Shown here one piece after another: positions 1,623 to 25,932 of a DNA stretch of 51,819 bases. This DNA comes from Trichormus sp. M33_DOE_039. GTDB lineage: Bacteria; Cyanobacteriota; Cyanobacteriia; Cyanobacteriales; Nostocaceae. The stretch spans positions 1-51,819 of the forward strand of contig DVDT01000059.1 of assembly GCA_015296085.1 (NCBI GenBank), written 5' to 3'. Both the position numbers and the translations under genes were made by a program. Below the pieces are notes generated by a model, which saw only the letters and a list, made by a program, of their open reading frames with translations, was not told the DNA's origin and did not search any database. Position 1 is the first letter of the stretch; each line of letters begins with the position of its first letter.

Positions 1623-2366
1623 TCAAGCTACATAATCGAAGAGCATAGTAGTCATGTAGCGATCTGCCCACTCTGTACCAAAAGATTTTTCTAGCACGCG
1701 CCGAGTTTTATCATTTTGTTGCTGCTTTGTACAGTAATGGCGTTGTCCTGCTAACACTTTCGAGATGTCGAGATTTGAGGTTAGGGGTGTTTCTGTACTA
1801 GCAATTTGACAATGGATAGTTAAAAAATCCCGCACCCGATTCAGAAACATATCTTCTTCTTCAGGGTTTCCTGGACGGACAAATAGACAAAATTCCGAAA
1901 AGATATCACCCCAAGCTGGTAAATCTCGTGGTTGGGAAAACGGTAATTCTGACAAAACCGACAACTGTGGATAGTAGCGTTCTGGTAGAGTGCGATCGCT
2001 ACTAATTGGAGACAAATCAGCGATCGCCGCACTAATCGCCCCACCACGCCCACCTACCAAATCTGTACCAAAGATAGGAAGTGCATATTCAGGATTAGGG
2101 AACATGACACAGTGCAGAATGTCTAAACCATTGCCAACTTGAGCCAATTCTAAATGCAGTTTGCGAAACTGTGGAGTTTGGTAACAATGATTTTCGATGA
2201 TTAGCCTTTCACCTTCCAAGTGACCTTCAACGTAGCCTAAACCTTCTGGAATCGAGTAAGGGGAGAGATCCAGGTATTTTTGCCAAATTTCTTCAATGGA
2301 ATCCGCCAACCTGTGGATTAGGGAATGCTGACGGCTTCTTAACGACGCTTGCATAGAATTCAACAT
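1623..2366 (-). CDS. pcyA: Phycocyanobilin:ferredoxin oxidoreductase
   Basis: 247 residues, the usual PcyA length. PcyA reduces biliverdin IXalpha with four electrons from ferredoxin to 3Z-phycocyanobilin, the chromophore of phycocyanin, allophycocyanin and cyanobacteriochromes. The family is recognisable from the core around G-N-G-L-D-I-L-H-C-V-M-F-P-N-P, the F-G-T-D-L-V-G-G-R-G-G segment and the E-x-x-M-F-L-N-R-V-R region. The frame extends 20 codons further to an ATG at 2426, but that ATG lies inside an L-box, so the start is placed at 2366, preceded by AAAGAGAAG; an ATG at 2354 is an alternative. The gene lies 100 bases downstream of rcaC on the same strand but has its own RcaC site, so it can be induced separately in red light. 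Its product is needed by both photoreceptors encoded nearby. Confidence 0.93.
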   Translation of the reverse strand: MLNSMQASLRSRQHSLIHRLADSIEEIWQKYLDLSPYSIPEGLGYVEGHLEGERLIIENHCYQTPQFRKLHLELAQVGNGLDILHCVMFPNPEYALPIFGTDLVGGRGGAISAAIADLSPISSDRTLPERYYPQLSVLSELPFSQPRDLPAWGDIFSEFCLFVRPGNPEEEDMFLNRVRDFLTIHCQIASTETPLTSNLDISKVLAGQRHYCTKQQQNDKTRRVLEKSFGTEWADRYMTTMLFDYVA

Positions 2367-2408
2367 ACGCTTCTCTTTGAGTATAGGATTAATACTTACC
2401 TTATTGTT

Positions 2409-2426
2409 CGTGCAAAATGTGTGCAT
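2409..2426 (-). promoter_or_regulatory. L-box (RcaC site) of pcyA
   Basis: On the minus strand it reads ATGCACA-CATT-TTGCACG, a 7-4-7 direct repeat matching the RcaC L-box TTGCACA-N4-TTGCACA as I recall it. It is on the same strand as pcyA and ends 42 bases before the chosen start. Candidate -10 elements are TATTAAT (2388-2394) and TATACT (2380-2385), so the box abuts or replaces the -35 region, as expected for an OmpR/PhoB-class activator. RcaC activation of pcyA in red light is inferred from Fremyella. Confidence 0.8.
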
Positions 2427-2466: not shown

Positions 2467-4416
2467 TCAACTTGCCCATGCTTTTACTCTTTGTAAACGC
2501 CTGAGAATGCGGTTAGCTAGTTCTACTCCCATCACGGGTTTACACAGATAATCATCTGCACCGACCGTAAACGCTTGATTCTGACTGCTGGAATCTGTCA
2601 ACACGCTCAGAAATAATACGGGCAATCTCTGCCAATGAGGGTCACTGCGGAGAATCTGACAGAGTTCAAATCCATTAATCTGTGGCATATTCACATCTAA
2701 AACTAACGCATCGGGGGTGACAGCTTGCAGTAAATTCCAAAATTGTTGCGGATCGGCTAGGGTTGTCACCTTAAATCCCCAAGGTTTGAGCAAGGTAGGC
2801 AGAGTACGTAACCATTCTTGATCATCATCTAAAATCATCACCTTGTTGGGGACTTCTGGAGTTCTTAACAAATTGACTACGGCATCAATTACCTGTTCTG
2901 GAGGAGTTTGTCCTGTTAAAAACAGCTGTCCACCCCGGCGCATGACTTGCAAGCGATCGCTCAAATCACCGCGATCGCCCATAATAATAATTGGCAACTC
3001 AGGATAACGGTGTTTAAATGTCTGCAATGTCTCCCAAAAATTACTGACTTCAAAGGCAGATTGATCAGTTACGGCTGAGGGTGATAAGGTGTGGGAAAAC
3101 CTCAACAAAACTACATCAGGATTTTGACCTAAAGTATCAAAAGCAGACTCTGTTATCTTCAAAGCTTGAGTCGCATCCAACACTGGCGCAATCTCCAAGC
3201 GAATTCCCCTACTAGCCGCCACACCAACTATAGATTGATTAAACTCAGCATCCGCACTCACAATTAGTAACAGGGGTGACTGTCCTGCGGGAAGTTGAGA
3301 CATTTGAATCAGTTTTGTCTGCTCAATGTCTTGCTGAAGAGCCGCGACTAAAGTTTTCATCAACGGCGCGTGTTTCGGTTGCAGAGGTTCGCGTCCCCCC
3401 AACCAATACTCTAATTGACGTGCGATGTGCATGGTCTTGGTTAATCCAAACACTCCCAACGTCCCCGCTAGTTTGTGAGCTACCTGTTGCGCCTGTGCTT
3501 GTTGTGGCGGCGTGAGTTGATTGGTTTGTAAGTCTCTGACAGTTTGTAACAGCACTGTCATCTGGTCGAGGCTTTTCGGTTGCGTTGTTTTCCAAGTATC
3601 GTTGAGAAAAGCCAGATATTGTTGCTGGGAATCTGGCGGCGGTTGTGGGGAGTCTTTCAAAGCTGCTGTGGATTTAGCTACACCAGCACCCCGCATCTGA
3701 TTTTCTGGAGTTGTGGTAATGCGAGCAGTTGATTCTTCTGTACTAGGTGCTTTCAGGTAGTAACCCCTTCCGTGCATAGTGGCGATAAAATCATGGGGCG
3801 CACCCGCAGCCACCAACTTATGTCGCACCCGCCGAATATGGGAACGTACCGTGGCTTCCGATGGAAATTCTTCCGAAGACCATAATCTATCTAAAAGTTC
3901 TTCAGTGCTGAAAACGTGCTGACAGTCTCGCAGTAGAACTTCTAGTAAATCATATTCCATCGTTGTCAGATTCAGGGGACAACCATTGTAAGTCACTTCG
4001 CAAGTGCTGGGATTCAGGAGCAAGTCACCCCAAGTCAGCAGGGGAAAAGGATTAGCACTGCCTCGCCTCAGTAATGCCCGAATTCTGGCAATTAGTTCTA
4101 CAGGGTCGAAAGGTTTGACTACATAATCATCTGCGCCTGCATCTAATCCCTGGACTTTGGCAGTAATAGTATCTTGAGCCGTCAGTAGGAGAATTGGCTG
4201 AGTGTATCCTTGTGTTCGGAAACGCTTACACAAACTGATACCATCCAACTTGGGTAGCATGATATCCAAGACAATCAGGTCATACTCAAACGTAGACCCA
4301 TAAGTCCATCCCATTTCCCCATCTTTGACAGTATCTACAATATAATGATGGGTCGCTAAATTCCTAGTGAGGACTTTGATTAATAAATCGTCATCTTCCA
4401 CAAGCAAGATTTTCAT
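2467..4416 (-). CDS. rcaC: Response regulator RcaC
   Basis: 649 residues with the four-part RcaC architecture: receiver 1 (about 1-118, phospho-acceptor D51), OmpR/PhoB winged helix (about 125-222), proline/glutamine-rich linker, histidine phosphotransfer domain (about 265-365, H314 in A-H-K-L-A-G-T), a degenerate receiver-like stretch (about 380-518) and receiver 2 (about 523-645, D574). RcaC is the DNA-binding output of the RcaE-RcaF relay in chromatic acclimation. In red light it binds L-boxes, activating phycocyanin-2 and pcyA genes and repressing the cpeC operon. The ATG at 4416 is preferred over an upstream in-frame TTG (4431) because it gives the canonical M-K-I-L-L-V-E-D-D receiver start and leaves 8 bases after the rcaF stop; the ribosome site is weak, suggesting translational coupling to rcaF. 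Confidence 0.95.
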   Translation of the reverse strand: MKILLVEDDDLLIKVLTRNLATHHYIVDTVKDGEMGWTYGSTFEYDLIVLDIMLPKLDGISLCKRFRTQGYTQPILLLTAQDTITAKVQGLDAGADDYVVKPFDPVELIARIRALLRRGSANPFPLLTWGDLLLNPSTCEVTYNGCPLNLTTMEYDLLEVLLRDCQHVFSTEELLDRLWSSEEFPSEATVRSHIRRVRHKLVAAGAPHDFIATMHGRGYYLKAPSTEESTARITTTPENQMRGAGVAKSTAALKDSPQPPPDSQQQYLAFLNDTWKTTQPKSLDQMTVLLQTVRDLQTNQLTPPQQAQAQQVAHKLAGTLGVFGLTKTMHIARQLEYWLGGREPLQPKHAPLMKTLVAALQQDIEQTKLIQMSQLPAGQSPLLLIVSADAEFNQSIVGVAASRGIRLEIAPVLDATQALKITESAFDTLGQNPDVVLLRFSHTLSPSAVTDQSAFEVSNFWETLQTFKHRYPELPIIIMGDRGDLSDRLQVMRRGGQLFLTGQTPPEQVIDAVVNLLRTPEVPNKVMILDDDQEWLRTLPTLLKPWGFKVTTLADPQQFWNLLQAVTPDALVLDVNMPQINGFELCQILRSDPHWQRLPVLFLSVLTDSSSQNQAFTVGADDYLCKPVMGVELANRILRRLQRVKAWAS

Positions 4417-4424
4417 TGATGCGG

Positions 4425-4796
4425 CTACCAATGGAGAATTCTAGTAATTTGCTCTGGCAGATCCAAAGAGTTAAAGGGCTTGGTAATGACACCACTGACT
4501 CCCAAATCATTGAACTGACGCTTTTCCGCCGTTTGTGCTTTGGCTGTTAAGAGAATGACGGGAATTTTTTCTGTCTCAGCACGGGACTGGAGTTCCTTAA
4601 ATGTAGCAATTCCATCCATTTCTGGCATCATTACATCTAACAAAATTACATCAGGTTTTGCGGTTTGGGCAGTTTGAATGCCCTCCGAACCAGAACTAGC
4701 CGTGAAAACTTCCCAACCCGCCGACATTTTGATGCCAAACTGCACGACGGTTTGAATGGTTTCTTCATCATCAATAATTAAAATCCGCTTAGGCAT
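4425..4796 (-). CDS. rcaF: Single-domain response regulator RcaF
   Basis: 123 residues, a single CheY-like receiver with the acidic pair D9-D10, phospho-acceptor D54 (L-L-D-V-M-M-P-E-M-D-G) and the conserved K in T-K-P-F. In the Fremyella system it carries phosphate between the photoreceptor kinase RcaE and the HPt domain of RcaC. Size and position, between rcaE (97 bases upstream) and rcaC (8 bases downstream), match the known rca genes. The start is supported by GGGGAG seven bases upstream. Alone it would be just another receiver; context makes the call. Confidence 0.93.
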   Translation of the reverse strand: MPKRILIIDDEETIQTVVQFGIKMSAGWEVFTASSGSEGIQTAQTAKPDVILLDVMMPEMDGIATFKELQSRAETEKIPVILLTAKAQTAEKRQFNDLGVSGVITKPFNSLDLPEQITRILHW

Positions 4797-4893: not shown

Positions 4894-7026
4894 CTATTGT
4901 GCCGCTTCGCTAACAGCACTCAGTACTGAATTAGGTAATGTGAATGCAAAGGTACTGCCACGCCCTGGCGTACTCTCAGCCCAAATTCTGCCGTTGTGTT
5001 GTTCGATAATTTTGCGACAGATAGTTAGTCCTAAACCAGTACCACCTTTTTTGCGGGAATCTGATGAATCCACTTGTTGAAAGCGTTCAAAGATCCGTTC
5101 GAGTTGATCTGCAGGAATACCTTGTCCTTCATCTCGCACCCGAAACACCCCTTCTCTAAGGAATTTTGAGGGGGTTTGCCCTTGTTCAACGGTTAGCCAA
5201 ACAGTACCCCCTGGTGATGAAAACTTGATCGCATTACTAATTAAATTGGTTAAAGCTTGCAATATATAGTCAGCATCAGCCCATACTGAGATTTCCTGTG
5301 GTTGTTTAACTAAAGTTACTTCGTGCTGCTGTGCCATTGCTTGCATTGCTTCTGCGGCTTGAGTAATCAAGCTGGCTGCATTGCAAGCTTGTCGTTCCAT
5401 GACGACTTTACCGGACTCAATCCTTTGGAGATCAAGCACGTTATTGACTAAGCGCACCAGCCGTTCTGTGCTTTCATCGGCAATAGACAGCATTTGTTGT
5501 CCTTCGCTGGAAAGATTGCCCAATCTTCCTGTCGCCAATATTTTCAAAGCACTGTGTAACGATGTGAGAGGAGTTCGCAGTTCATGACTAATCACAGAAA
5601 TGAATTCGTCTTTCATCCGTTCAATGGCTTTGCGATCGCTAATATCGCTACTCAAGGCAAAAAATCCCTTTACTGTTTTCTGCCCATCTAGATGTGGGAT
5701 ATATGTCACATCAACAGATCGCAAATTTCCATTCTTCAAGACGATATCATTTTCATAGATGACAGCTTGTCCAGATAACGCTGTTTCCACATACGCCTGC
5801 ATTCTTTGGTAACAATCTTCTCCCCAAACCTGGCAAAGATGACAACCATAAATTTCGCTAGGAGTCTGTCCCAACCAATCATAGTAGGCTTCATTGTTAA
5901 AACGATAACGTTGTTGCTCGTCTACATAAGCAATCAACACTGGTAAGGCATTAGTAATTAAGCGCAATTGCTCTTCACTTTGGCGTAAAGCTGCTTCTGC
6001 TTGCATCCGCACATTGATTTCCTCTTGCAATTCGGCGGTGCGAGCTGCGACAACTTCTTCTAAGCGTTCTAATAGTTGCGCTTGAGATAGAGCAATACTG
6101 ATTTGATCTGCTAATTGTTGCATCAGTTCCAACTCAAAATCCACCCAATGGCGATCGCTGTTACATTGGTGTGCGATTAACAATCCCCACAGATGATTCT
6201 GAGAAGTGTTGAGACTCTGGACAATGGGAACAATCAGTTTGGCTTTGATATTGAACTGCTCGACAAATTCCACCAAACAATCTGCTAAACCAGCAGTAGG
6301 ATCATGAACATTAGCGATCGCTCTGACTCTTCCTTGAGCATACAGTTGTCGATACTCCTCTGGAAAAACTTCCTGGGGAAATTCCATATCCATCAGGGAG
6401 GGATAGTCGGTTACAACCGATTCGCTTATGGTTTTACCTGTACCGTCTGGTAATACGTGATAAATTAACACGCGATCAGCTTGGAGAATCCGTTGCACTT
6501 CCGTAACGGTGGTATGAAGAATTTCCTTAAGTTGTAGCGACTGACGAATATTGAGTGTGACTTCTGAAAATAATTCCACTCGCTGTTGCTGCTGTCTCAA
6601 TTCTGCCTGCATGGATTCCCGACGCTGACTAATATCTCGTAACAGCAACAGATGACAGTGGGGCAGAACATTTGGTGTTAAAGTATATTCCACCTCTCTC
6701 TGGACATGGCTAGAAGATGAGACTAATAGTTCTCCAATCAATGATTGTCCCAGTGGAAAACTTTCAGCGTTATGTCCCGCAGCGATGAAATTAGATAAGG
6801 CTTGTTTTTTGAGTTTTTTACGCGGTAAGCCTAGCAAATCGCAAGCAGCATTGTTCATCTCTACGAAACAACCTTGATCATTAATCAGTGCGATCGCCGC
6901 AGGCGGGGCGCAGCCCATCGCGTCATGGGTGTTCTGAAACAAAGTTTTAATCAGACGCTTGTAAGCTTTTCGCTGCTGCTTAGATTTTTTTGAGCTAGAT
7001 TGTCGCTTTGAAGAACGTTTAGACAC
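4894..7026 (-). CDS. rcaE: Green/red cyanobacteriochrome histidine kinase RcaE
   Basis: 710 residues from a GTG start: basic N-terminus, PAS (about 30-135), bilin-binding GAF (about 150-318), coiled-coil linker, PAS (about 350-465), HisKA with H481 in S-H-E-L-R-T-P-L, and HATPase_c (about 575-700; N-box around N594, G-T-G-L-G-L). The GAF has the chromophore cysteine C288 (A-H-Q-C). E219, L251 and K263 lie at a constant offset of two from the protochromic residues I recall for Fremyella RcaE (E217, L249, K261), which also supports the GTG start. RcaE senses the green/red ratio and is an active kinase in red light, feeding RcaF and RcaC. Codons 37-44 come from an interspersed palindromic repeat inserted in frame in the first PAS domain. 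Convergence of motif, architecture and neighbours makes the call firm. Confidence 0.95.
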   Translation of the reverse strand: MSKRSSKRQSSSKKSKQQRKAYKRLIKTLFQNTHDAMGCAPPAAIALINDQGCFVEMNNAACDLLGLPRKKLKKQALSNFIAAGHNAESFPLGQSLIGELLVSSSSHVQREVEYTLTPNVLPHCHLLLLRDISQRRESMQAELRQQQQRVELFSEVTLNIRQSLQLKEILHTTVTEVQRILQADRVLIYHVLPDGTGKTISESVVTDYPSLMDMEFPQEVFPEEYRQLYAQGRVRAIANVHDPTAGLADCLVEFVEQFNIKAKLIVPIVQSLNTSQNHLWGLLIAHQCNSDRHWVDFELELMQQLADQISIALSQAQLLERLEEVVAARTAELQEEINVRMQAEAALRQSEEQLRLITNALPVLIAYVDEQQRYRFNNEAYYDWLGQTPSEIYGCHLCQVWGEDCYQRMQAYVETALSGQAVIYENDIVLKNGNLRSVDVTYIPHLDGQKTVKGFFALSSDISDRKAIERMKDEFISVISHELRTPLTSLHSALKILATGRLGNLSSEGQQMLSIADESTERLVRLVNNVLDLQRIESGKVVMERQACNAASLITQAAEAMQAMAQQHEVTLVKQPQEISVWADADYILQALTNLISNAIKFSSPGGTVWLTVEQGQTPSKFLREGVFRVRDEGQGIPADQLERIFERFQQVDSSDSRKKGGTGLGLTICRKIIEQHNGRIWAESTPGRGSTFAFTLPNSVLSAVSEAAQ
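6890..6935. repeat. Interspersed palindromic repeat inside rcaE
   Basis: 46 bases that match 7639-7684 at 43 positions. The core is GCGATCGCCGCAGG followed by GGGGCGCAGCCCATCGC. In the rcaE frame the insert-like core encodes M-G-C-A-P-P-A-A between T-H-D-A and I-A-L-I. Confidence 0.75.
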
Positions 7027-11082: not shown

Positions 11083-11580
11083 TTGAATAACAAAATATTA
11101 GGGCGGATGCTGCTCGCTCATAACTTTGATGTTTCTAGTGAAATCGTACCAGCCCTCAGTCGAGAAGAATTTGCGGAAGTGTTTCAAGCGGGATTGAGTG
11201 CCTATGAACACCTGCAATGTAGATTAGTGAATCATCCTCACTGGACTGTGGAAATTCTATTCCCTACCAACGAATTTTCACCACAGCAAGTTGGAAATCT
11301 CTGCGCTCAAGCTCTAGCAGAAAAACGGCGGACTACGGTGGGGCGTAGCCCATCGCAGCAAATAAGCACGGATACTTTCCCAGAAATTCTAATTTTAGGC
11401 GGTATCAAAACTACTCCTCCCACCAGCGATTCTCCTGATGCTCTCCAACCAGGAAACTGGGGGGTAGATGTGGTAGAGACTCGCTCTGGTGAAGCATTTT
11501 TGCAAGCGATCGCCTGGGATGCTACCATCGCCCAAAAACCAGCCGATAGTATTTTCAAGGTTGAACTCAAGGTAAATTGA
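11083..11580 (+). CDS. DUF2656-like cyanobacterial protein
   Basis: 165 residues. G-R-M-L-L-A-H-N-F-D-V near the start, A-L-S-R-E-E-F-A, P-H-W-T-V-E and the end I-A-W-D-A-T-I-A-Q-K-P resemble the cyanobacterial DUF2656 family as I remember it; no function is established. The frame opens at a TTG (11083); an ATG at 11107 would remove eight residues. Codons around 85-91 (V-G-R-S-P-S) come from a GGTGGGGCGTAGCCCATCGC repeat, apparently inserted in frame without breaking the gene. It heads a same-strand series with the ankyrin and HEAT genes before cpeC. Confidence 0.6.
   Translation: MNNKILGRMLLAHNFDVSSEIVPALSREEFAEVFQAGLSAYEHLQCRLVNHPHWTVEILFPTNEFSPQQVGNLCAQALAEKRRTTVGRSPSQQISTDTFPEILILGGIKTTPPTSDSPDALQPGNWGVDVVETRSGEAFLQAIAWDATIAQKPADSIFKVELKVN
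11337..11356. repeat. Short interspersed repeat inside the DUF2656-like gene
   Basis: GGTGGGGCGTAGCCCATCGC, one mismatch from the core of the repeats at 6890 and 7639. It sits in frame in the gene's middle, where related proteins probably have a variable loop. Confidence 0.6.
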
Positions 11581-11646
11581 CCACTAGGGTAATGAAGTCG
11601 AAATAGACTTCCGACTGCCGATTTTATTTATTTTTGACTTTTTAAA

Positions 11647-15297: not shown

Positions 15298-15305
15298 AGT
15301 TTAAC

Positions 15306-15486: not shown

Positions 15487-16242
15487 ATGGCACTTTGGAT
15501 AGAAGCCGAATCCCTGGAGTTACGTGCCAATGCTACTGAGGATGATCTGCAGATCATCATTCGAGCCGTGTATCGACAGGTGTTGGGTAATGCTCACATC
15601 TTCGATAATCAACGGCTCGCCAGTGCAGAGTCACAATTACGGCATGGTGATATTACCGTCAGAGAATTTGTCCGCGCTGTGGCTCAATCTGACTTATATC
15701 GTTCTCTATTTTTTGAAACCTCCTCTCCTTACCGTTTTATTGAACTGAATTTTAAGCATTTGTTGGGACGCGCTCCGCAAGATCAGGCAGAAATTGCAGA
15801 ACACGTGCAGATTTATAACACACAGGGTTACGCAGCAGAAATCAACTCCTACATTGACAGTGATGAATATATCAGGAGTTTCGGTGATCATATTGCACCC
15901 TCTGCCCGTGGTAATCGTACCCAAACTGGGGTCAAAAATGTTGGCTTCAATCGCACCTTTGCCTTAATGCGGGGGTTTGCTGCTAATGATGTAGGCAAAT
16001 CGGCCAAATTGATTAGTGACATTGGCAGTAACTTAGCAACCAAAATTATTACCCCTTTAGGCGGTGGTGCTGTTAGCAATACAGGGAAACGTTTCCGTGT
16101 TGCTGTCTCGAAGGCTAATTTCGGTCGTCGGGTAACTCAAAGCGTGGCGACCTTTAACGTGGAATACAACCAACTATCACAAAAAATTCAGAGCATCCAA
16201 AAAACTGGCGGCAAAATTTTGAGCATTACGGAAATAGCTTAA
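15487..16242 (+). CDS. cpeE: Phycoerythrin-associated rod linker CpeE
   Basis: 251 residues, PBS linker domain (about 18-155) plus CpcD-like domain (about 195-251, ending L-S-I-T-E-I-A). The frame is open further upstream to 15388, but the ATG at 15487 is preceded by AGGAGG at ideal spacing and gives an N-terminus (M-A-L-W-I) like that of other rod linkers, so it is taken as the start. Close paralogue of CpeD. It lies 189 bases downstream of cpeD, after two hairpins. Confidence 0.9.
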   Translation: MALWIEAESLELRANATEDDLQIIIRAVYRQVLGNAHIFDNQRLASAESQLRHGDITVREFVRAVAQSDLYRSLFFETSSPYRFIELNFKHLLGRAPQDQAEIAEHVQIYNTQGYAAEINSYIDSDEYIRSFGDHIAPSARGNRTQTGVKNVGFNRTFALMRGFAANDVGKSAKLISDIGSNLATKIITPLGGGAVSNTGKRFRVAVSKANFGRRVTQSVATFNVEYNQLSQKIQSIQKTGGKILSITEIA

Positions 16243-16505
16243 AGTAAAACCGCTAAAAGTTTGTAGATAGATGGTCTATTGGCAAAAATTCACTCACAAA
16301 ACTACTGCTAAACATGACAATTTTTCAAAATTCAATCAAAAATACAAACTCTAAAACTAGGATTTGAATCTGACTTGCTTAATTTTGAATTTTGAATTGC
16401 TCTCACTGGTTATCAAGCCGCAATTCTTTTAGTGATTGCCTCGCTTGTCCATAGATTCAGGTTGATGATAAGTTGCTTACAACATCAAATTTAAAGGTGA
16501 TTTGT

Positions 16506-16937
16506 ATGGCAACCACAATTATTGCTCCTGGCAATTTTAGTGAATACAGTAGTTGCCGAGTCAAGATTACAGTCACAGGTGGCTGTCATCAAGGAATAAT
16601 GAGGAAAGGTGCATACACAAAGACAATTCCTTATAATTGTCTTTCTCAAACAATTCAAGGTATTCATCGCCTTGGGGGAAAGATTACCCACATCACCTTA
16701 TTAATTTCCCAGACTCCATTTTCCCAGATTGAGTGCGTACAGCAGCCACTATCTACAATAGTTCCCGGTGATGTTCAAGCTGCCGTACATCATCCTGAAT
16801 CGAGCTTGTCATTACCCCAACCACAGGAACAGAATCATTCTGAGCCAACAAACGCAATTAAAGTTCAACCAGAATCACTACCGAGAGCGATCGCAATTTT
16901 CCAATCCGGTGATTACACCTTTATAGATGAGTGGTAA
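16506..16937 (+). CDS. Small CpcD-domain linker with C-terminal tail
   Basis: 143 residues. Residues about 12-70 form a CpcD-like domain (R-V-K-I-T-V-T-G, I-P-Y-N-C-L-S-Q-T-I-Q-G-I-H-R-L-G-G-K-I), as in 9-kDa rod-capping linkers and the C-termini of CpeC/D/E. No pfam00427 domain is present. The remaining 70 residues are a polar, proline/glutamine-rich tail ending in a short conserved-looking segment (R-A-I-A-I-F-Q-S-G-D). The ATG at 16506 follows AAAGGTGA. The gene sits between cpeE and cpeS, where the classical cpeCDESTR operon has none as far as I recall. A role as phycoerythrin rod cap is inferred. Confidence 0.75.
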   Translation: MATTIIAPGNFSEYSSCRVKITVTGGCHQGIMRKGAYTKTIPYNCLSQTIQGIHRLGGKITHITLLISQTPFSQIECVQQPLSTIVPGDVQAAVHHPESSLSLPQPQEQNHSEPTNAIKVQPESLPRAIAIFQSGDYTFIDEW

Positions 16938-17090
16938 TCAACAAGTCAAAAAAGGTGTACAGAATTAACCTGAAATTTCATTTCAGTTTTTTCTTCTACC
17001 TTAATTCAAACCAGGATTTTCTATTTCAGAAATCAAAATTTTTATATTCCATACCAAAACAAATAACTATAAACGGAAATTCAAAAGTTG

Positions 17091-17621
17091 ATGGATATTC
17101 AGGAGTTTGTTGCAAATTCGATTGGGCGTTGGCGATCGCAACGCAGCGCACATCATTTAGCTTTCAGTCACTTTGAAGCTGTACAGTCTGAGATTGATAT
17201 TGTGGCTCTCTCAGTCCATGATCCAGCAGTGATTGACCTATGTAAAAGCTATAATATTGACCCTCAAGCAGCAGTTTCTCCATTTCGGATGAGTTGGGAA
17301 GGTCAATCAGACTGGGACGATGGTGAAGTTAAAGGCAGTTGCGTCTTAGTTCCTATTCCTGATCCTGATGATGCTCATCGTGGTAAACTCCTGCGTGATC
17401 AAGGCTATGCGGAAACAATTGCCGCAGCTGGCGACTATTACTTAACGGCAGACGGCACATTTGTGCTGACTACTGCCTATGAACGCGCCGCCGCTGAAGA
17501 AAAAATCTGGTTTGTCAATCCCAATGTCCGTTGTCGGGTTTCACTCATCAAAACTAGTGCAGGGACAGGAGTTGTCACCGCCTCATTTTCCTCAGAAATT
17601 CGCCAAGGTGTTCAGAATTAA
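17091..17621 (+). CDS. cpeS: S-type phycobiliprotein lyase CpeS
   Basis: 176 residues, the CpcS/CpeS lipocalin-like fold family: M-D-I-Q-E-F-V-A-N-S-I-G-R-W-R-S-Q-R start, S-W-E-G-Q-S-D-W-D (about 65-73), R-A-A-A-E-E-K-I-W-F-V-N-P-N-V-R-C-R. S-type lyases attach a bilin to the equivalent of Cys82; CpeS attaches phycoerythrobilin to phycoerythrin beta-Cys82. A TTG lies directly upstream of the ATG chosen here. Position after the linkers and before cpeT matches the operon. Specificity (PEB) is inferred from context. Confidence 0.92.
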   Translation: MDIQEFVANSIGRWRSQRSAHHLAFSHFEAVQSEIDIVALSVHDPAVIDLCKSYNIDPQAAVSPFRMSWEGQSDWDDGEVKGSCVLVPIPDPDDAHRGKLLRDQGYAETIAAAGDYYLTADGTFVLTTAYERAAAEEKIWFVNPNVRCRVSLIKTSAGTGVVTASFSSEIRQGVQN

Positions 17622-17786
17622 ACTATAGCTATTCAAAATTCAAAATAACCTAGGGAACCTTGCTACAAAATTGTATTTTGTACTGTCTATTTCTGCTCAT
17701 TTATGACTGAAAACGGAGAGGATTTAAGTCGTATAAATTGATTTACGAAGCATTAATTTTGAATTTTGAGTTGGGAGCGAAGCATA

Positions 17787-18410
17787 GTGACTTCTTCAAT
17801 ATCACATATCTGCGAGACTACATTGAATAATTTAGTTACCCTGGCACGTTGGATGGCGGGAGATTTCAGTAATTATCAGCAAGCATCGGAAAATCCTAAA
17901 GATTACGCCCATATCCACGTCTTTTTTCGTCCCTTACCCTTTGAGTTCTTCTCTGGAATTGGGATGTATTCCGAACAGGTTTATGACTATGACTTGTGGC
18001 GACCTTATCGTCAGGGAGTACATCGTTTAGTTGATCAAGGCGATCAAATTTACATAGAAAACTACAGTTTAAAAAACGCCATGTTTTACGCGGGAGCAGC
18101 CCGTGATTTAAACATTCTCAAAACCATTACTCCAGATTGTATTGAACGCCGATATCACTGCTCAATGGTGTTTAAACGAGAAGGCGATCGCTTTCAAGGC
18201 AGTGTCGAACCAGGCAACCGCTGCTTAATTGAAAAAAATGGCTGTCAAACTTATCTAGATAGCTATGTGGAAATCACAGAAAGCACCTGGGTAAGCCTCG
18301 ATAGAGGTATGGATGTCAATACACATCAACAAGTTTGGGGATCTACATTTGGCCCATTGCGGTTTACAAAGCGGGAGAGTTTCGCTCATGAAGTCCCAAA
18401 TATCTTGTGA
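17787..18410 (+). CDS. cpeT: CpeT/CpcT-family protein
   Basis: 207 residues from a GTG preceded by GGGAG; an in-frame TTG at 17766 is less likely. Motifs: L-A-R-W-M-A-G-D-F-S-N, H-I-H-V-F-F-R-P-L-P and Y-D-Y-D-L-W-R-P-Y-R-Q-G-V-H-R typify the CpcT/CpeT beta-barrel family. CpcT attaches phycocyanobilin to beta-Cys155 of phycocyanin; CpeT in phycoerythrin operons is thought to act on PEB or as a chaperone-like bilin carrier. Its last 23 bases overlap the start of cpeR, implying translational coupling. Confidence 0.9.
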   Translation: MTSSISHICETTLNNLVTLARWMAGDFSNYQQASENPKDYAHIHVFFRPLPFEFFSGIGMYSEQVYDYDLWRPYRQGVHRLVDQGDQIYIENYSLKNAMFYAGAARDLNILKTITPDCIERRYHCSMVFKREGDRFQGSVEPGNRCLIEKNGCQTYLDSYVEITESTWVSLDRGMDVNTHQQVWGSTFGPLRFTKRESFAHEVPNIL

Positions 18411-18753
18411 TGTATCTCTGCCAAATCTGGAATCTCTGAAAACAAATATGCTGCCCCCAGAAGCGCAGAAAAAAATGCAGTGCTGGATTCGTAGCAGGCA
18501 TTTAATTTGTTCAGGTAATTTTTTCGTTTTTGAAACTGTAGATTACAGTGCCGTTGAAAGATTTTCCCAATGTGTGGAAGTCTTGGGAGGTACTGTTATA
18601 TCTGTTGATCCGATTGACAAAATTTGGATGGGTGATCATCGTCAAGTGATTCTCTATCAAGCCAAAGCAAGTTTACATACACCTTGCCACAAACTAAAAC
18701 AATATTGGCTGAAATACGGTAGTTTTCGCACCCGATTTGATGGGCAGGCATGA
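18388..18753 (+). CDS. cpeR: Phycoerythrin regulator CpeR
   Basis: 121 residues, last gene of the operon. CpeR is the activator required for cpeBA expression in Fremyella and is encoded at the end of cpeCDESTR. The core matches the second copy at 20895: C-W-I-R-S-R-H-L-I-C-S, F-F-V-F-E-T-V-D-Y-S, W-M-G-D-H-R-Q-V-I-L-Y and Y-G-S-F-R-T-R-F-D. The start ATG lies inside the end of cpeT after GGGAGAG; an ATG at 18448 would give a 101-residue form. No known DNA-binding motif is visible. Because it is cotranscribed with cpeC, RcaC repression would also shut off cpeBA indirectly. Confidence 0.88.
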   Translation: MKSQISCDVSLPNLESLKTNMLPPEAQKKMQCWIRSRHLICSGNFFVFETVDYSAVERFSQCVEVLGGTVISVDPIDKIWMGDHRQVILYQAKASLHTPCHKLKQYWLKYGSFRTRFDGQA

Positions 18754-18959: not shown

Positions 18960-19340
18960 ATGCTACAGATAGATCAATCTGCCTTGAAAGCTCGCAATAT
19001 ATTACTTACTATGTTTGTCGTGCTTTGTATCCTAGATGCTACGTTAGTGTTCATTGCACGGGATAGATGGGCTATTGGACGTATATTACTAACAATTGTA
19101 GTCATGTACTTTGTTCTACAGGGGCGAAAATGGGCAAAGTGGCTCATGATGGGTATCTGTAGTTTTGTGATTGTCGTCCTAATAACAATGGTTATTGCAT
19201 TGAGATCAAAGCTCTCCACTGTCCTCATTCTAGGGAGTTTAATTATGTCCGCTCTCAGTACCATCATTCTTATCTATATGGCGAGTAGCAAAGATTTAAA
19301 TTCTTACTTCTCTTGGAAAAGGCAAAATTATTCTCAATGA
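18960..19340 (+). CDS. Four-helix membrane protein of unknown function
   Basis: 126 residues with about four hydrophobic segments (about 12-32, 38-54, 58-80, 83-108) joined by short charged loops. I recognise no family. No clear ribosome site precedes the ATG. It sits alone between the cpe operon and ccaR, convergent with ccaR, and ends at a strong shared terminator. Its place inside the chromatic-acclimation region may be incidental. Confidence 0.65.
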   Translation: MLQIDQSALKARNILLTMFVVLCILDATLVFIARDRWAIGRILLTIVVMYFVLQGRKWAKWLMMGICSFVIVVLITMVIALRSKLSTVLILGSLIMSALSTIILIYMASSKDLNSYFSWKRQNYSQ

Positions 19341-19370: not shown

Positions 19371-19416
19371 TAGAGGTCAGAAACTGCGTCTTAGTTTACG
19401 CGGTTTCTGACCTCTA
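19371..19416. terminator. Strong two-way terminator
   Basis: Perfect 14-base arms, 5' arm TAGAGGTCAGAAAC (19371-19384) and complement at 19403-19416, with further pairing in the loop (GCGT/ACGC). It lies between the convergent membrane-protein gene and ccaR and overlaps the ccaR stop codon. Confidence 0.85.
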
Positions 19417-20091
19417 CTTATTTTGATTGAGGCGATAACCTATGCTGTGAACCGTCTCAATCAGCTCCTCTGCTGCTCCCGCAGCTTTCAGTTTTTGCCT
19501 GAGACCCCGAATATGAACCTTGACCGTATGTTCTTCTGGAGGAGATTCTAACGCCCAGATATGTTCAATAATCACACGACGACTGAGAACGCGGCGACCA
19601 TTCCGTAACAGCAGTTCTAAGATACCGTACTCTTTGGGTGTCAGATGGATGGGAGTTGACCCATAGCTGACCTCATAAGTGCTGGGATTGAGACGTAACT
19701 CGCCCCATTCTAAAATCGGTGGTGATGTCATACACCCACGACGCAGTAAGGCACGAATGCGAGCAAATAGTTTTTGTAAATCAACTGGTTTAACTACGTA
19801 GTCATCTGCACCCACATCTAAGCCATTAATTTCATCATTGATTGTGTCGCAGGCCGTGAGCATCAGGATAGGCCAATGATAACCGTGCGATCGCAAACGA
19901 TGACAAAGGCTAATTCCATCTAATTCCGGCAACATCACATCTAATAACAGCAAATCATAATTTAGGGCTTTCACTTGATGCCAGGCAGCTTCTCCATCAT
20001 GCACAACATCAACCACATAAAGCTGGTCGTTCAGAGCTTCTGCTAAGGTTTCTGCAAGGCTTACATCATCTTCAACTAGGAGAATCCTCAT
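19414..20091 (-). CDS. ccaR: Response regulator CcaR
   Basis: 225 residues, OmpR/PhoB class: receiver (about 1-117; D8-D9, phospho-acceptor D51, K101 in V-V-K-P) and winged-helix DNA-binding domain (about 128-222, V-K-V-H-I-R-G-L-R-Q-K-L and G-Y-R-L). CcaR is the partner of the green-light-activated kinase CcaS and binds a direct-repeat G-box. Assignment rests on family plus three local facts: a G-box 515 bases upstream, cpcL downstream of that box, and a CcaS-type kinase after cpcL. It is transcribed away from its target operon. It resembles the N-terminal half of RcaC but lacks the HPt and second receiver. Confidence 0.9.
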   Translation of the reverse strand: MRILLVEDDVSLAETLAEALNDQLYVVDVVHDGEAAWHQVKALNYDLLLLDVMLPELDGISLCHRLRSHGYHWPILMLTACDTINDEINGLDVGADDYVVKPVDLQKLFARIRALLRRGCMTSPPILEWGELRLNPSTYEVSYGSTPIHLTPKEYGILELLLRNGRRVLSRRVIIEHIWALESPPEEHTVKVHIRGLRQKLKAAGAAEELIETVHSIGYRLNQNK

Positions 20092-20605: not shown

Positions 20606-20628
20606 CTTTCCGATTTCTTTACCGTTTT
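20606..20628 (+). promoter_or_regulatory. G-box (CcaR site)
   Basis: CTTTCCGATTT followed at once by CTTTACCGTTTT, a tandem direct repeat matching the CcaR G-box I recall from Synechocystis and Nostoc (CTTTNCGATTT repeated). A possible -10, TATCTAG, is at 20659-20665. The site faces the second cpeR-type gene and cpcL, the expected green-light targets. Confidence 0.82.
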
Positions 20629-20671: not shown

Positions 20672-20746
20672 GAGGCTGTTGGGAATGAAGTTATTCCTCA
20701 GATTCACAAACAGGGTGATGTAATTGCCAGTATCACCTCGATTTAA
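20672..20746 (+). pseudogene. cpeC: 3' remnant of a second cpeC
   Basis: The 24 codons before the TAA at 20744 read E-A-V-G-N-E-V-I-P-Q and then I-H-K-Q-G-D-V-I-A-S-I-T-S-I. The intact CpeC ends I-H-Q-Q-G-G-V-I-A-S-I-T-A-V (10 of 14 identical). An in-frame TGA at 20669 and missing linker domain show it is only the tail of a lost gene. It lies just downstream of the G-box, where Nostoc punctiforme has cpeC of its CcaR-controlled cpeC-cpcG2-cpeR1 operon. Confidence 0.85.
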
Positions 20747-20894: not shown

Positions 20895-21251
20895 ATGAGT
20901 CTAGCAACACCCCACCAGGGCGATTTGATTAAAACTCCCGTTGAAATACTGCCCTCCACCGCGGAAAAAAAGTTGCAATCTTGGATTCGCACTCGCCATG
21001 TCATTTGTTCGAGAAACTTTTTTATCTTTGAGACAGTAGATTATTCCGCTCTAGAAAGGTTTTCTGAGTGTATTACGGCATTAGGAGGAACACTCATTTC
21101 TGTAGACTCGATTGGCAAAGTTTGGATAGGTTATCATCGTCAAGTAATTTTGTATCGCGCCAAAGCCAGTTTGCACACTCCTCATCATGATTTAAGACAA
21201 TATTGGCTCAAATGCGGCAGTTTTCGGACGAGATTTGATCAACAAGTTTAA
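20895..21251 (+). CDS. cpeR: Second CpeR-family regulator
   Basis: 118 residues, paralogue of the CpeR at 18388; shared blocks include F-F-I-F-E-T-V-D-Y-S-A, H-R-Q-V-I-L-Y and K-A-S-L-H-T-P. It follows the cpeC fossil (148 bases) and precedes cpcL (185 bases), so it is expected to be induced by CcaR in green light. As an activator of cpeBA it could tie the Cca system to phycoerythrin synthesis. No strong ribosome site precedes the ATG. Functional equivalence of the two copies is not known. Confidence 0.85.
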   Translation: MSLATPHQGDLIKTPVEILPSTAEKKLQSWIRTRHVICSRNFFIFETVDYSALERFSECITALGGTLISVDSIGKVWIGYHRQVILYRAKASLHTPHHDLRQYWLKCGSFRTRFDQQV

Positions 21252-21436: not shown

Positions 21437-22192
21437 ATGCCGATTCCTTTATTAGAGTATGCCCCCTTATCGCAAAATCATCGCGTCGCGGGATTTGAGA
21501 TTCCGGGTGATGAGCAGCCAAGAATTTACACAACAGAAAATCTGCTAGCTGCCTCAGATATGGATATGTTAATCATGGCAGCTTATCGGCAGATTTTTAA
21601 TGAACAACAGATGCTCGATAGCTATCGTCAGCGATTTTTAGAGTCTCAGTTACGTGCTGGTCAAATTACAGCCAGAGACTTTATTCGGGGATTGGTGATG
21701 TCCGATTCCTTTCGACGACTCATTTACGACAGTAATAATAACTATCGATTTGTAGAGATTTGCGTTCAGAGGCTTTTGGGTCGTAACGTCTATAGCGATC
21801 GCGAAAAGCTCGCTTGGTCAACAGTACTGGCAACCAAAGGACTAAAAGGCTTAATTGATGCTTTAATCAATACTGAAGAATACCTCAGCAACTTCGGCTA
21901 TGATACTGTTCCTTATCAACGCCGCCGTATCTTACCTCAACACGCTCAAGGAGAACTACCATTTGCGCGCATGGCGCGTTATGGGGAAGATTATCGCAAC
22001 AAGTTGCCTCTACCTCGTCGTTCTATCCGTCCTATTCCCACTGGAATTTTTGACGAATTTGAACCTTTTAACCTCTATACATTCATCCAACGTGCTGATT
22101 GGAAGACCAGCTTTAGTTTAATAGGTTTTTTCATCACACTAGCTATTCTTTTCGTGCTGTTTGCAGAAGCAAATAACTTGTTCTTGGGCTAA
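21437..22192 (+). CDS. cpcL: Membrane-anchored rod linker CpcL (CpcG2 type)
   Basis: 251 residues. The N-terminal PBS linker domain (about 20-190; P-L-L-E-Y-A-P start, [26 protein letters not shown]) is of the CpcG type. The C-terminus lacks the core-binding segment and ends in one hydrophobic helix (about 227-249, [14 protein letters not shown]), the hallmark of CpcL. CpcL ties phycocyanin rods to the membrane and delivers energy mainly to photosystem I. The ATG follows AGGGAGA. It lies between the second cpeR and ccaS. Confidence 0.93.
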
Positions 22193-22276: not shown

Positions 22277-24868
22277 ATGGGAATCGTACTGAGTTTATTG
22301 TTGTTATTAGGCATCTACTATTTGTTGCAACGACAAATTTGGCAGCGTCGTAGGGCAGAGACTTTGCTGCGACAACAAAGCGATCGCGAACGCTTGGTAA
22401 CTCAGATTGCCCAACAAATTCGCCAATCTCTGGATCTAGATCAGGTGCTAGCAACAACAGTAGAGGAAGTGCAACGCTTTCTAGCAGCTGATCGCGTCCT
22501 CATCTATCGTTTGTGGAACAATGGCACAGGTAGTGCTATTCACGAAACTGTTTTACCACCTTATCCCCAGGTTTTAGGGGAAACCTTCCCAGAAGAGGTT
22601 TTTCCTACAGAGTACCATCAAGCCTACTCCCTAGGGAAAACCCTCACCATTACCAACGTACAGCAAGTAGATATCCCGGCTTGTTTGGTAGATTTTGTGC
22701 AACGGTTTGGAGTGCAAGCAAAGTTGGTAGTCCCAATTATCCAAGAACATCGGGACAACGTTGAAGATAGTACTGCTCATGTTCCCTATCTCTGGGGATT
22801 ATTGATTGCTCATCAGTGCAGTAGTCCTCGTCAGTGGGCAACTTGGGAAGTGGAATTGATGCAGCAACTAGCCACGCAAGTAGCGATCGCTATTCAACAG
22901 TCGGAACTCTACACACAACTCCAACAACTCAACACCGAACTTGAACGACGGGTACAACAACGTACAGCGGAATTAGCCAGTGCTAATACTGCTTTACGGG
23001 CAGAAATTGTTGAACGACAGCGTACTGAGTTAGCTTTGCGTCACACCAACGACACGCTACAAGCCTTGGTCAAAGCTTCTCCCCGTGCAATTGTCATGCT
23101 AGATCGAGAGGGTAAGGTGAAAATATGGAATCCGGCGGCACAGCAAATGTTTGGCTGGACGGAAGCAGAGGTACTGAATTGCCCTAATCCCATTGGTTTA
23201 GAAAACTATCCCACACTGCAAAGGAGCGTTTTGCAAGGGACGACATATTCCCGGTTAGAATTTCGCCAACAGAAAAAAGACGGTACTCCCATAGATATTA
23301 TCTTTTCCGCCGCTCCCCTCCTAGATAGCGATGGACAAATCGGTGGGATTGTGGCGGTAATTGCTGACATTACGGAACAAAAACAACAAGCCGAACAAGT
23401 CAGGCTGCTGCAATCGGTGGTAGTGAATACCAATGATGCGATTTTAATTACTGAAGCAGATTCGATTGATGAACCTGGCCCTCGTATTCTTTATGTCAAT
23501 GAAGCCTTCACAAGAATTACAGGCTATCAACCGGATGAAGTTTTAGGCAGAACTCCCCGCATTTTACAGGGGCCGAAAACTGATCGGGCAGAATTGGACA
23601 AAATTCGCTCGGCATTGTCAAATTGGCAACCTGTGACTGTTGAGGTGATCAACTATCGCAAGGATGGCACAGAATTTTGGAATGAATTCAGCATTGTACC
23701 TGTGGCCGATCGCCAGGGTTGGTATACTCATTGGATTGCTGTGCAGCGTGATACAACTGGACGCAAACAAGTAGAACAGGCACTACGTCAAAGTGAAGAA
23801 CGTTGGCGATCGCTAATTGAAAATGCTTTAGACATTATTATGATTCTCGATCCCGATGGCACTATAGGTTACGTGAGTCCCTCGGTGGTGAAAATCCTCG
23901 GTTATCCAGTGATGGATCTGGTGGGTCAAAACGTCATGGCACTAGTTCACCCAGATGATTTGATCACGACAAGCGATCGCCTCACTGATACTAGGCAAAG
24001 TTCAGAGTTAACACGCCCCATCGAGTTTCGCTATTGCCATCATGACGGTTCTTGGCACATTTTAGAAGCCATCAGTCAGTCTTTTGCAGACAGTGCGGCT
24101 ATTGTGCGGATTATGGTGAATGCTCGTGACATTACAGAACGGAAGCGGCTGGATGAAATTCGCTTGGCACTAGCAAGAGAGAAAGAACTCAATGCCTTGA
24201 AAACTCGCTTCTTTGCAATGGCATCCCATGAATTTCGGACTCCCCTCAGCACTGCCCTGGCGGCGGCGCAAGTTTTGGAAACTTGTCAAGATGAATGGGA
24301 TACATCCGCCAAAAGACTGAGAAATCTGCACCGGATTCAAGATGCTGTCAAGCATATGGTACAGTTACTTGACGATATTTTAACTATCAATCGCGCCGAA
24401 GCGGGGAAACTAGCATTTAATCCCCAACCCTTAGATTTAGAAATATATTGTCGTGATTTCGTTGAAGAAATTCAGCAGAGTTTAGGTAGTCAGCACACAA
24501 TCAGGTTTACCTGTCAGGGTAGATCCATACCTGTTTGTATGGATGCAAAATTATTGCGCTCTATTTTATCGAACTTGCTATCCAATGCCATTAAGTATTC
24601 CCCAGACGGAGGGATTGTGCATTTGAGGTTGGATTTTCAGATGGAGCAGATGATCCTCGCTGTTCAGGATCAAGGCATTGGGATATCCCCAGAAGATCAA
24701 AAGCAGTTGTTTGAACCTTTTCATCGGGGTAAGAATGTCCGCACTATTCCTGGTACTGGTTTGGGATTAGTAGTGGTAAAAAAATGTGTAGACTTACATC
24801 AAGGTAATATTCGTATCTTCAGCAAAGTGGGCATTGGTACGACTTGCTTTGTAACACTGCCATTGTGA
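22277..24868 (+). CDS. ccaS: Green/red cyanobacteriochrome histidine kinase CcaS
   Basis: 863 residues: N-terminal membrane helix (2-18), bilin-binding GAF (about 38-212), coiled coil, three PAS domains (about 258-368, 375-498, 503-625), HisKA with H651 (S-H-E-F-R-T-P-L) and HATPase_c (about 740-863). The chromophore cysteine is C181 (A-H-Q-C). E107, L137 and K149 align with the protochromic triad of RcaE, so the same green/red chemistry is expected. In Nostoc and Synechocystis CcaS is activated by green light and phosphorylates CcaR. The second PAS is LOV-like (G-R-T-P-R-I-L-Q-G-P) but lacks the flavin-reactive cysteine. It starts 84 bases after cpcL without a clear ribosome site. Confidence 0.93.
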   Translation: MGIVLSLLLLLGIYYLLQRQIWQRRRAETLLRQQSDRERLVTQIAQQIRQSLDLDQVLATTVEEVQRFLAADRVLIYRLWNNGTGSAIHETVLPPYPQVLGETFPEEVFPTEYHQAYSLGKTLTITNVQQVDIPACLVDFVQRFGVQAKLVVPIIQEHRDNVEDSTAHVPYLWGLLIAHQCSSPRQWATWEVELMQQLATQVAIAIQQSELYTQLQQLNTELERRVQQRTAELASANTALRAEIVERQRTELALRHTNDTLQALVKASPRAIVMLDREGKVKIWNPAAQQMFGWTEAEVLNCPNPIGLENYPTLQRSVLQGTTYSRLEFRQQKKDGTPIDIIFSAAPLLDSDGQIGGIVAVIADITEQKQQAEQVRLLQSVVVNTNDAILITEADSIDEPGPRILYVNEAFTRITGYQPDEVLGRTPRILQGPKTDRAELDKIRSALSNWQPVTVEVINYRKDGTEFWNEFSIVPVADRQGWYTHWIAVQRDTTGRKQVEQALRQSEERWRSLIENALDIIMILDPDGTIGYVSPSVVKILGYPVMDLVGQNVMALVHPDDLITTSDRLTDTRQSSELTRPIEFRYCHHDGSWHILEAISQSFADSAAIVRIMVNARDITERKRLDEIRLALAREKELNALKTRFFAMASHEFRTPLSTALAAAQVLETCQDEWDTSAKRLRNLHRIQDAVKHMVQLLDDILTINRAEAGKLAFNPQPLDLEIYCRDFVEEIQQSLGSQHTIRFTCQGRSIPVCMDAKLLRSILSNLLSNAIKYSPDGGIVHLRLDFQMEQMILAVQDQGIGISPEDQKQLFEPFHRGKNVRTIPGTGLGLVVVKKCVDLHQGNIRIFSKVGIGTTCFVTLPL

Positions 24869-25176
24869 GCGATCGCATTTACTGCTTTACTTTTAGTGTT
24901 AGCCACTACAAACATTTTGTAGTCTGTGTTGATACAATTCTCATTTAAAGTAGGTTTGAGTGAGCATAAATTTTCCCCATTTGGCCAGTCGATTGTACTT
25001 GCCTCTATTTTTGCATTAAACCTCTAAGCCTTTTCGGGAAAGCGTTTCACCACTCCTCAACTACTCAATTAAGATATGTAATGTTTATCAAACTAAATCG
25101 AATAATTCTTCCCCTTCTCCCTTATGATTATGATAACTTTGTAAGATTTCGTTAAGGAAAGGGAGATTTTGTATCC
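24869..25176. other. Promoter region of cpcG
   Basis: 308 bases without a gene. It should hold the cpcG promoter and leader; no L-box or G-box was seen. GGGAGA at 25160-25165 serves the cpcG GTG start. Confidence 0.45.
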
Positions 25177-25932
25177 GTGGCACTTCCTCTTTTAGAATAT
25201 TCCCCTAAGTCCCAAAACCAACGGGTAGCAAGTTTTGAAGTTCCTGGAGATGAGCAGCCCAGGACTTACTCTACAGAAAACCTACTTTCCCCAACAGATT
25301 TAGATAATCTGATTGAAGCAGCCTATCGCCAGATTTTTTTCCATGCCTTTGCTGCTGATCGTGAGCGTTTCTTAGAATCTCAGCTGCGTAGTGGTCAGAT
25401 CACAGTACGTGATTTTATTCGTGGATTGTTGTTATCTAACACCTACAAGCGTAGTTTCTACGACCTCAATAGCAACTATCGTTTCGTAGAACAAACAGTA
25501 CAACGTGTTCTCGGTCGTGATGTTTACGACAACCGGGAAAAACTAGCTTGGTCAATTGTCGTAGCAACAAAAGGCCTCAAAGGCTTCGTTGATGACTTAC
25601 TCAACTCTGATGAGTATTTAGAAGCTTTTGGGTATGATATCGTACCTTATCAACGTCGCCGAGTCCTACCTGGACGTTCAGAAGGTGAACGGCCTTTCAA
25701 TATCACATCTCCTCGTTACGATGAATACTATCGTGCTAAACTTGGCTTCCCACAATTCGTTTGGCAAACCACTGTTCGCAGCTATGTTGCTCCAGACAGA
25801 CAGGCTAAAGCTGGTAGCCCATCTCTGTTCTTAGATATGGCACGGAGTATCAATCCCCAAGTTAACGCACCTCAACGTCTCTCTGTACAAAACATTGATA
25901 TTGAGAGATCCGTTCCTTATCGCGGCAGATAA
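25177..25932 (+). CDS. cpcG: Phycobilisome rod-core linker CpcG
   Basis: 251 residues from GTG with AAGGAAAGGGAGA upstream. PBS linker domain (about 20-190) very like that of CpcL (shared P-G-D-E-Q-P-R, V-P-Y-Q-R-R-R), but the C-terminus is soluble ([18 protein letters not shown]), as in core-binding CpcG1. It joins rods to the allophycocyanin core of standard hemidiscoidal phycobilisomes. Its own upstream region and terminator make it monocistronic. Having core-type and membrane-type paralogues side by side suggests local duplication. Confidence 0.92.

Follow-up and report, generated by a model that had tools for sequence, protein, structure and literature searches.

A probable hybrid chromatic-acclimation locus joining two green/red light-sensing systems in a Trichormus genome

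Introduction

The chromatic acclimation of Fremyella diplosiphon (CA3) relies on RcaE, RcaF and RcaC (RcaEFC), with L-boxes at pcyA and cpc2 and, in reversed orientation, at the phycoerythrin linker operon. The CcaSR locus of Nostoc punctiforme (CA2) carries cpeR in its G-box operon, and the CA4 islands of marine Synechococcus involve other genes and colours. In Pleurocapsa sp. PCC 7319, a hybrid said to have been described by Otsu et al. in 2022, RcaEFC and CcaSR reportedly share one cell, with Cca acting on cpcL and Rca on phycocyanin.

According to PMC8256508 and PMC9415938, RcaE-RcaC is active in red light and CcaS-CcaR in green light, and RcaE undergoes a protochromic photocycle with phycocyanobilin, the product of PcyA (PMC8112840). 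PMC8256508 also covers the roles of the L-box, including the repression of pebAB of PCC 7335 from a reversed and more distant L-box, and gives the letters of the Synechocystis G-box; in Synechocystis 6803, the CcaR G-box operon of the CcaSR locus includes cpcL (PMC8256508 and PMC12461855). In PMC9415938, both sensors were counted in three of 65 genomes, CcaS and RcaE are both present in Calothrix NIES-2100, C. brevissima NIES-22 and Calothrix 336/3, and cpcL was found in 14 of 27 CA3 strains, mostly in RcaE-modulated operons or near bilin-synthesis genes. The presence of two systems in one genome is already known (Calothrix, Pleurocapsa), and their tight linkage is rare.

Here, we analyzed such a linkage in Trichormus sp. 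M33_DOE_039 (this genome, G000). The window, i.e., the whole stretch of DNA that was analyzed (51,819 nucleotides), is the entire contig C113 of a 7.02-Mb genome assembled into 116 contigs.

Results

Gene content of the island

The original prediction of two complete green/red systems in a 24-kb island (positions 1623-25932) was confirmed: all the genes it named are present as open, full-length ORFs, namely pcyA-rcaC-rcaF-rcaE, cpeCDE-S-T-R, ccaR, a second cpeR, cpcL, ccaS and cpcG. Families were assigned from Pfam, NCBIfam and PDB matches. CpeR1 and CpeR2 had no match in Pfam or NCBIfam, and we presume their names from position, mutual similarity and what is known of the family.

The Rca cluster lies on the minus strand and consists of pcyA (1623..2426; phycocyanobilin:ferredoxin oxidoreductase, NCBIfam NF002760, 351 bits against a cut-off of 206), rcaC (2467..4431; receiver, DNA-binding Trans_reg_C, Hpt and receiver domains in Pfam), rcaF (4425..4796; a single receiver with 92-97% identity in seven relatives) and rcaE (4894..7026; green/red cyanobacteriochrome histidine kinase). 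It is followed on the plus strand by DUF2656, ankyrin and HEAT/NblB-like genes (11083..13150), which often sit between rcaE and cpeC; the DUF2656 and ankyrin genes (11083-12351) occupy this interval in several loci. The phycoerythrin operon, also on the plus strand, comprises the linker genes cpeC, cpeD and cpeE (13647..16242; 92-97% identity in the relative G010), a short CpcD-domain gene (16473..16937; Pfam), the lyase genes cpeS and cpeT (17088..18410; both above Pfam cut-offs) and cpeR1 (ORF 18313..18753, with the true start inside; conserved in relatives). CpcD domains are found in the three cpe linkers and in this fourth short gene. The operon is followed by u18960 (18960..19340, plus strand), which encodes a 126-aa hydrophobic protein without Pfam match and adjoins ccaR in G068 too.

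A terminator-like hairpin of 19 pairs (19371..19416, plus strand), identified by our terminator scan, separates the cpe operon from ccaR (19414..20091, minus strand), an OmpR-class response regulator gene whose product was aligned with 11 other CcaRs. The rest of the Cca arm is on the plus strand: cpeR2 (20895..21251; ORF, supported by relatives), cpcL (21437..22192; a rod-membrane linker of the CpcG family with a hydrophobic C-terminal segment, judged by eye), ccaS (22277..24868; green/red cyanobacteriochrome histidine kinase by structure match and Pfam) and cpcG (25177..25932; a rod-core linker of the CpcG family without hydrophobic C-terminal segment). Two minus-strand genes come next, u26191 (26191..26613), which adjoins cpcG and encodes an HTH_3 protein, and the flank gene rluA (26693..27682), where antenna-locus types differ between congeners. 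The HTH_3 protein is a candidate regulator of phycoerythrin genes.

Outside the island, cpeBA was found on contig C73 (CpeB 320 bits and CpeA 300 bits, both over cut-off), beside a cpeS-like gene and a further CpcG-family linker whose end is hydrophobic (C73:34790-38677). Within the window, the segment 20231-20584, between ccaR and the G-box described below, looks like an interspersed repeat that yields a spurious ORF; positions 47216-50107 encode a Roc-COR protein that also has leucine-rich repeats and a TIR domain; and Rfam at the gathering threshold returned only one tRNA.

Sensors

Pfam domains follow the order PAS, GAF, PAS, HisKA and HATPase in RcaE, and GAF, three PAS, HisKA and HATPase in CcaS. 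The GAF domain of RcaE matched the solved chains 8k9o (E 1.7e-103) and 7ckv, which is named RcaE (E 5.8e-88), and the same two chains were the best solved matches of the CcaS GAF domain (4.7e-50 and 2.4e-44). Alignments showed that the GAF cysteine is kept in both proteins (residue 250 of RcaE and residue 136 of CcaS), as are a Glu, a Leu and a Lys that we take to be the protochromic triad of green/red sensors. The locus presents the components of CA3, i.e., RcaE with a green/red GAF domain, bilin cysteine and kinase core in one cluster with RcaF and RcaC (REC-DBD-Hpt-REC), and those of CcaSR, i.e., CcaS with a green/red GAF domain and bilin cysteine beside ccaR. Both systems are open and complete in one genome, as in a CA3/CcaSR hybrid.

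Predicted regulatory sites

We searched the whole genome for the L-box pattern with up to two mismatches and found 63 places (29 forward and 34 reverse), against 14 (6 and 8) for the reversed-pattern control. The sole perfect match, at C14:29160, precedes a phycocyanin beta gene (310 bits, cut-off 279) by about 360 bp. A site with one mismatch lies about 260 bp upstream of the start of cpeC and points in the opposite direction (13368..13385, minus strand); it occupies the same place in several relatives. The other one-mismatch site of the genome, on C107, falls within a coding region and was dropped. Finally, a site with two mismatches lies at pcyA in the direction of the gene (2409..2426, minus strand), and L-box-like sites with 0-2 mismatches were found at pcyA in G010, G021, G001, G539, G642, G059 and G093. 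Because the first ATG of the pcyA ORF (2426) falls within this site, the true start of the gene is probably near 2366. By sequence match, the CA3 sites are present at cpc2 (forward, 0 mismatches), pcyA (forward, 2) and the phycoerythrin operon (reversed, 1). In the window alone, six L-box-like sites with up to three mismatches were counted, which is not above shuffled sequences (mean 7.97), and the case for these sites therefore rests on their position and on the same sites in relatives.

A CcaR G-box with two mismatches to the Synechocystis site is predicted at 20606..20627 (plus strand), upstream of cpeR2-cpcL-ccaS, as in other CcaSR loci with cpcL and cpeR. It is the only place in the genome with two mismatches or fewer, and one other place has three. 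Its letters are identical in G033, G021 and G068, and about 35 bp of conserved sequence come next. A loose search for G-box half-sites in the window yielded 18 against 29 in shuffles, i.e., below chance. Promoter and terminator scans gave totals close to those of shuffles or lower (10 against 13.3 and 4 against 6.1, with similar outcomes in further scans), and only the 19-pair hairpin was used.

The original prediction assigned pcyA and the phycoerythrin operon to Rca, and CpcL and the second CpeR to Cca. The L-box-like and G-box matches make this assignment likely. It also held that the two systems act with opposite sign, which agrees with what is known of the sensors. The resulting outputs would not be opposed, since a repressing reversed L-box on cpeC and an activating G-box on cpeR2-cpcL would give the same green-light output from both arms.

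Frequency of both systems and of their linkage

Using RcaE as query on a family sample of 217 genomes (E<=1e-65), we detected RcaE in 24 genomes and both sensors in at least six, a lower bound because the query was RcaE with a limited number of scored candidates. CcaS was confirmed in the five other family genomes with both sensors by 69-85% matches to ccaS and by the presence of ccaR in their loci. An order sample of 388 genomes contained 39 with RcaE (E<=1e-61), 57 with CcaS (E<=1e-67) and 11 with both, and a class sample of 388 genomes contained 63 (E<=1e-61), 40 (E<=1e-64) and 19, respectively. These samples overlap, and a recount gave 32 genomes with both sensors. This count leaves aside the second GAF matches of G027, G060, G121 and G124 (query residues 1-165); the CcaS query returned no CcaS-type match in G060 or G124.

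The two sensors were on one contig in 9 of the 32 genomes and on different contigs in 23, where they might still be near each other across a break. Their GAF domains are 15.9 kb apart in this genome. The distances are 40 kb in G539, 116 kb in G642, 268 kb in G021, 0.7 Mb in G705, 1.3 Mb in G068, 2.3 Mb in G677, 4.6 Mb in G331 and 4.7 Mb in G801, so that only this genome has both systems within 25 kb on one contig. Such rarity would be expected if both systems were present by descent and their closeness here were a coincidence without functional or evolutionary meaning. We consider this unlikely, because ccaR and cpcL remain beside cpe and rca genes in G010 and G012, and G033, G602 and G801 have cpe genes next to ccaR.

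Layout in relatives

In G010, rcaEFC, cpe, ccaR, cpcL, cpcG and rluA are contiguous in a single 6.99-Mb contig, without ccaS. This same rca-cpe-ccaR-cpcL-cpcG order rules out an assembly artefact, a reservation attached to the original prediction, and indicates that the linkage is real. The island is repeated in G010 and G012 without detected ccaS or intact cpeR2, and in G001 also without ccaR and without a G-box at up to four mismatches. Other relatives present parts of this arrangement: cpeCDESTR is joined to ccaR-cpcL-ccaS in G033, with rca elsewhere; ccaR-cpeR2-cpcL-ccaS-cpcG-u26191 lies far from rca in G021 and G068; and cpe genes adjoin ccaR in G602 and G801, with no rca within the 20 kb read. 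The cpeC gene of G602 has a G-box with three mismatches. In G033, several kb of sequence separate rcaE, rcaF and rcaC from one another, and together they take up more than 10 kb.

Among 26 cyanobacterial loci (L014-L039, of which L038 is not an RcaE), cpe genes were found beside rcaE in ten (L014-L019, L024, L026, L037 and L039) within flanks of up to 10 kb that were often ended by contig ends. A perfect L-box and phycocyanin-type genes come after pcyA in G010 and G001; this genome has that operon on C14.

The rluA side of the island

The rluA gene was found in all 13 genomes of the genus. On its 3' side, phycocyanin-type genes of the rod antenna are present in the nine congeners without RcaE: each has one or more phycobilisome rod-linker genes, and seven (not G003 and G004) have cpcG copies within the stretch read. 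Reading was extended in three of them and showed two phycobiliprotein sets each in G009 and G008 and a single set in G011. The second set of G009 is above the phycocyanin cut-off (beta 321 against 279 bits), and its first pair falls below (251 against 279 and 253 against 269); judging from the usual gene order, this pair is presumably pec. In the four RcaE-bearing genomes, rluA adjoins u26191 and cpcG, and u26191 is found in none of the other nine. One branch of an unrooted tree of the flank parts the nine genomes from the four with a support of 80 (58 for rluA alone). A clean two-sided swap between rod cluster and island was rejected, as only the rluA side is shared. In G539, rluA also lies next to cpe genes (68%, in the other relative orientation), which was taken as coincidence.

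The original prediction further suggested that the linked genes form a module that might move or evolve together. It is conceivable that the linkage reflects a selected module transferred between strains in one piece: the layout is common to this genome, G010, G012 and, without ccaR, G001, and u26191 and the flank tree both separate exactly these four genomes from the other nine. In addition, island gene trees group G001 with other genera (rcaC 87, rcaE 91), a placement that would not be predicted from simple vertical inheritance inside the genus. The proposal was not supported, however. Of the other 31 genomes with both sensors, 8 have arms separated by 40 kb to megabases and 23 have them on different contigs, and the three RcaE-bearing congeners keep the layout while their Cca arm is eroded. 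Moreover, the left side of the island, which here ends 1.6 kb short of the end of the contig, is not the same in G010, and no integrase or transposase family was detected among the window proteins scanned with Pfam or NCBIfam (the ORFs other than short overlapping ones), unlike what a mobile antenna island would present. Overall, transfer as one piece appears quite unlikely.

Decay of the Cca arm in congeners

The other three congeners with RcaE yielded no CcaS and retain cpeR2 only as a relic; their CcaR is either an accelerated orphan (G010 and G012) or gone (G001). The cpeR2 relics are located upstream of cpcL (78-84% over 86-93 bp; E 7e-17 to 9e-21 in a 1540-base subject set) and match cpeR1 more weakly or not at all; G033 has a shorter relic (E 4e-6). 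No ccaS lies between cpcL and cpcG in G010 and G001, and no CcaS-type match was obtained in these genomes at E<=1e-53. In G001, where cpcL follows the L-box operon, the expected ccaS position is taken by a gene of the amine-oxidase family (Pfam PF01593). The loss is less certain in G012, which was checked with the RcaE query only, because its contig breaks between cpcL and cpcG and its assembly is 93% complete.

This genome probably shows a trace of loss as well. A stretch of 15 aa downstream of the G-box (20699..20746, plus strand) is probably what remains of the 3' end of a cpeC-type linker gene (tblastn E 6e-5; it scores 53, and the best of 300 shuffles 40); the phycoerythrin linker gene of CA2 G-box operons is represented here by this probable 3' relic only. 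The corresponding score is slightly above shuffles in G021 (50 against 45); candidates in G068, G033, G014, G010 and G012 did not exceed shuffles and were rejected.

The orphan CcaR of G010 has accumulated 25 unique changes against 2 in this genome (relative-rate test, p 5.6e-6), and its stem branch measures 0.245 against 0.052. The difference in ccaR held in all eight relative-rate comparisons (p from 5.6e-6 to 9e-4). Nine other genes gave two tests at p 0.031 (cpcL in G012/G014 and u26191 in G012/G068) and all others above 0.05. Between this genome and G010, dS is 0.97 for ccaR, 0.90 for cpcL and 0.44-0.80 for ten other genes, so that part of the CcaR acceleration may not be relaxed selection. 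These values also hinted at a transfer of the Cca block into this genome, which was rejected as the trees gave no support. Five CcaS-bearing family members share 182 invariant ccaR sites. Both orphans are changed at 16 of these, which amounts to 4 of the 11 sites in helix alpha-1 and 12 of the 171 others (Fisher p 0.009, for a region chosen after looking). Both orphans keep the phospho-acceptor Asp, and most of the stretch after the G-box is kept too. We detected no terminator-like hairpin between u18960 and ccaR in G010. In G001, the scan placed one inside cpeR1 and none between u18960 and cpcL. Our literature search found no report of an orphan CcaR or of CcaR with gene loss.

Alternatively, ccaS and cpeR2 could have been gained recently in this genome beside an older orphan ccaR, given that two congeners have ccaR with no detected ccaS and that ccaR dS to G010 is high. 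This scenario is very improbable: cpeR2 relics are present in all three congeners, the order ccaR-cpeR2-cpcL-ccaS-cpcG is the same in G021 and G068, and ccaR and cpcL of this genome split off with those of G010 and G012 at a support of 99 (unrooted).

Discussion

From the observed gene content, site matches, linkage, relics and missing genes, we conclude that the region is probably a hybrid chromatic-acclimation locus built from two known green/red systems, in which an older CcaSR locus was joined to an RcaEFC cluster and control is passing to Rca. The locus resembles F. diplosiphon CA3 in the layout of sites by sequence match, with the addition of a CcaSR arm. As in CA2 and CA1 CcaSR loci, it has a CcaR G-box operon with cpcL, and with cpeR as in CA2; unlike in those loci, the linker gene is apparently a relic and the neighbouring phycoerythrin operon has an L-box-like site. 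Compared to Pleurocapsa sp. PCC 7319, the arms are linked, the L-box-like site is on the phycoerythrin operon and the G-box operon includes a second cpeR. G068 shares the order ccaR-cpeR2-cpcL-ccaS-cpcG, but its arms are 1.3 Mb apart. The presence of both sensors is shared with the Calothrix strains above (PMC9415938). Light-colour genes are also grouped in one island in the CA4 islands of marine Synechococcus (PMC3877281); in contrast to those islands, this locus bears no sign of mobility.

Family knowledge lets us infer the light sign, phosphotransfer and regulation as follows. In red light, RcaE would phosphorylate RcaC via RcaF, and RcaC would activate pcyA and the phycocyanin operon on C14 through forward L-boxes and repress cpeCDESTR through the reversed one. 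In green light, this repression would end, and CcaS-CcaR would activate cpeR2-cpcL via the single G-box, as well as ccaS itself if the operon reads on. The combined output would be more phycoerythrin and CpcL rods in green light and more phycocyanin in red light.

The hybrid may have originated from an older CcaSR operon of CA2 type beside a phycoerythrin operon, here also adjoining the RcaEFC/pcyA cluster of CA3. Because RcaC would already give green induction of phycoerythrin, the CcaR regulon (linker gene, cpeR2, ccaS and ccaR) could shrink, presumably to different extents among relatives, with this genome keeping it nearly whole. We tentatively suggest that linkage let one sensor take over the genes of the other, that the Cca arm decayed stepwise and that the rluA side serves as an antenna-locus address, a combination that is possible rather than probable. 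The phycoerythrin operon beside the old CcaR locus would have come under RcaC, and the CcaR arm would then have decayed in an order of losses that the same family knowledge suggests. This genome would retain both arms, separated by a strong terminator. In G010 and G012, CcaR would be an orphan whose changes are densest in the helix that should contact kinases, and the G-box would be altered. In G001, CcaR, G-box and terminator would be gone and cpcL would have run into the L-box operon. The rluA-proximal site would be an address for either a phycocyanin-type rod cluster or a phycoerythrin/colour-sensing island.

The rewiring of colour-sensing circuits has mostly been inferred from distant strains, and a single genus with the same gene order seems to show its stages. 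Congeners seem to lose one sensor while the target gene stays, so that linked genes may be traced through a change of controller. Finally, the orphan CcaR could show a response regulator drifting or finding a new kinase, which bears on the use of CcaSR as an optogenetic tool.
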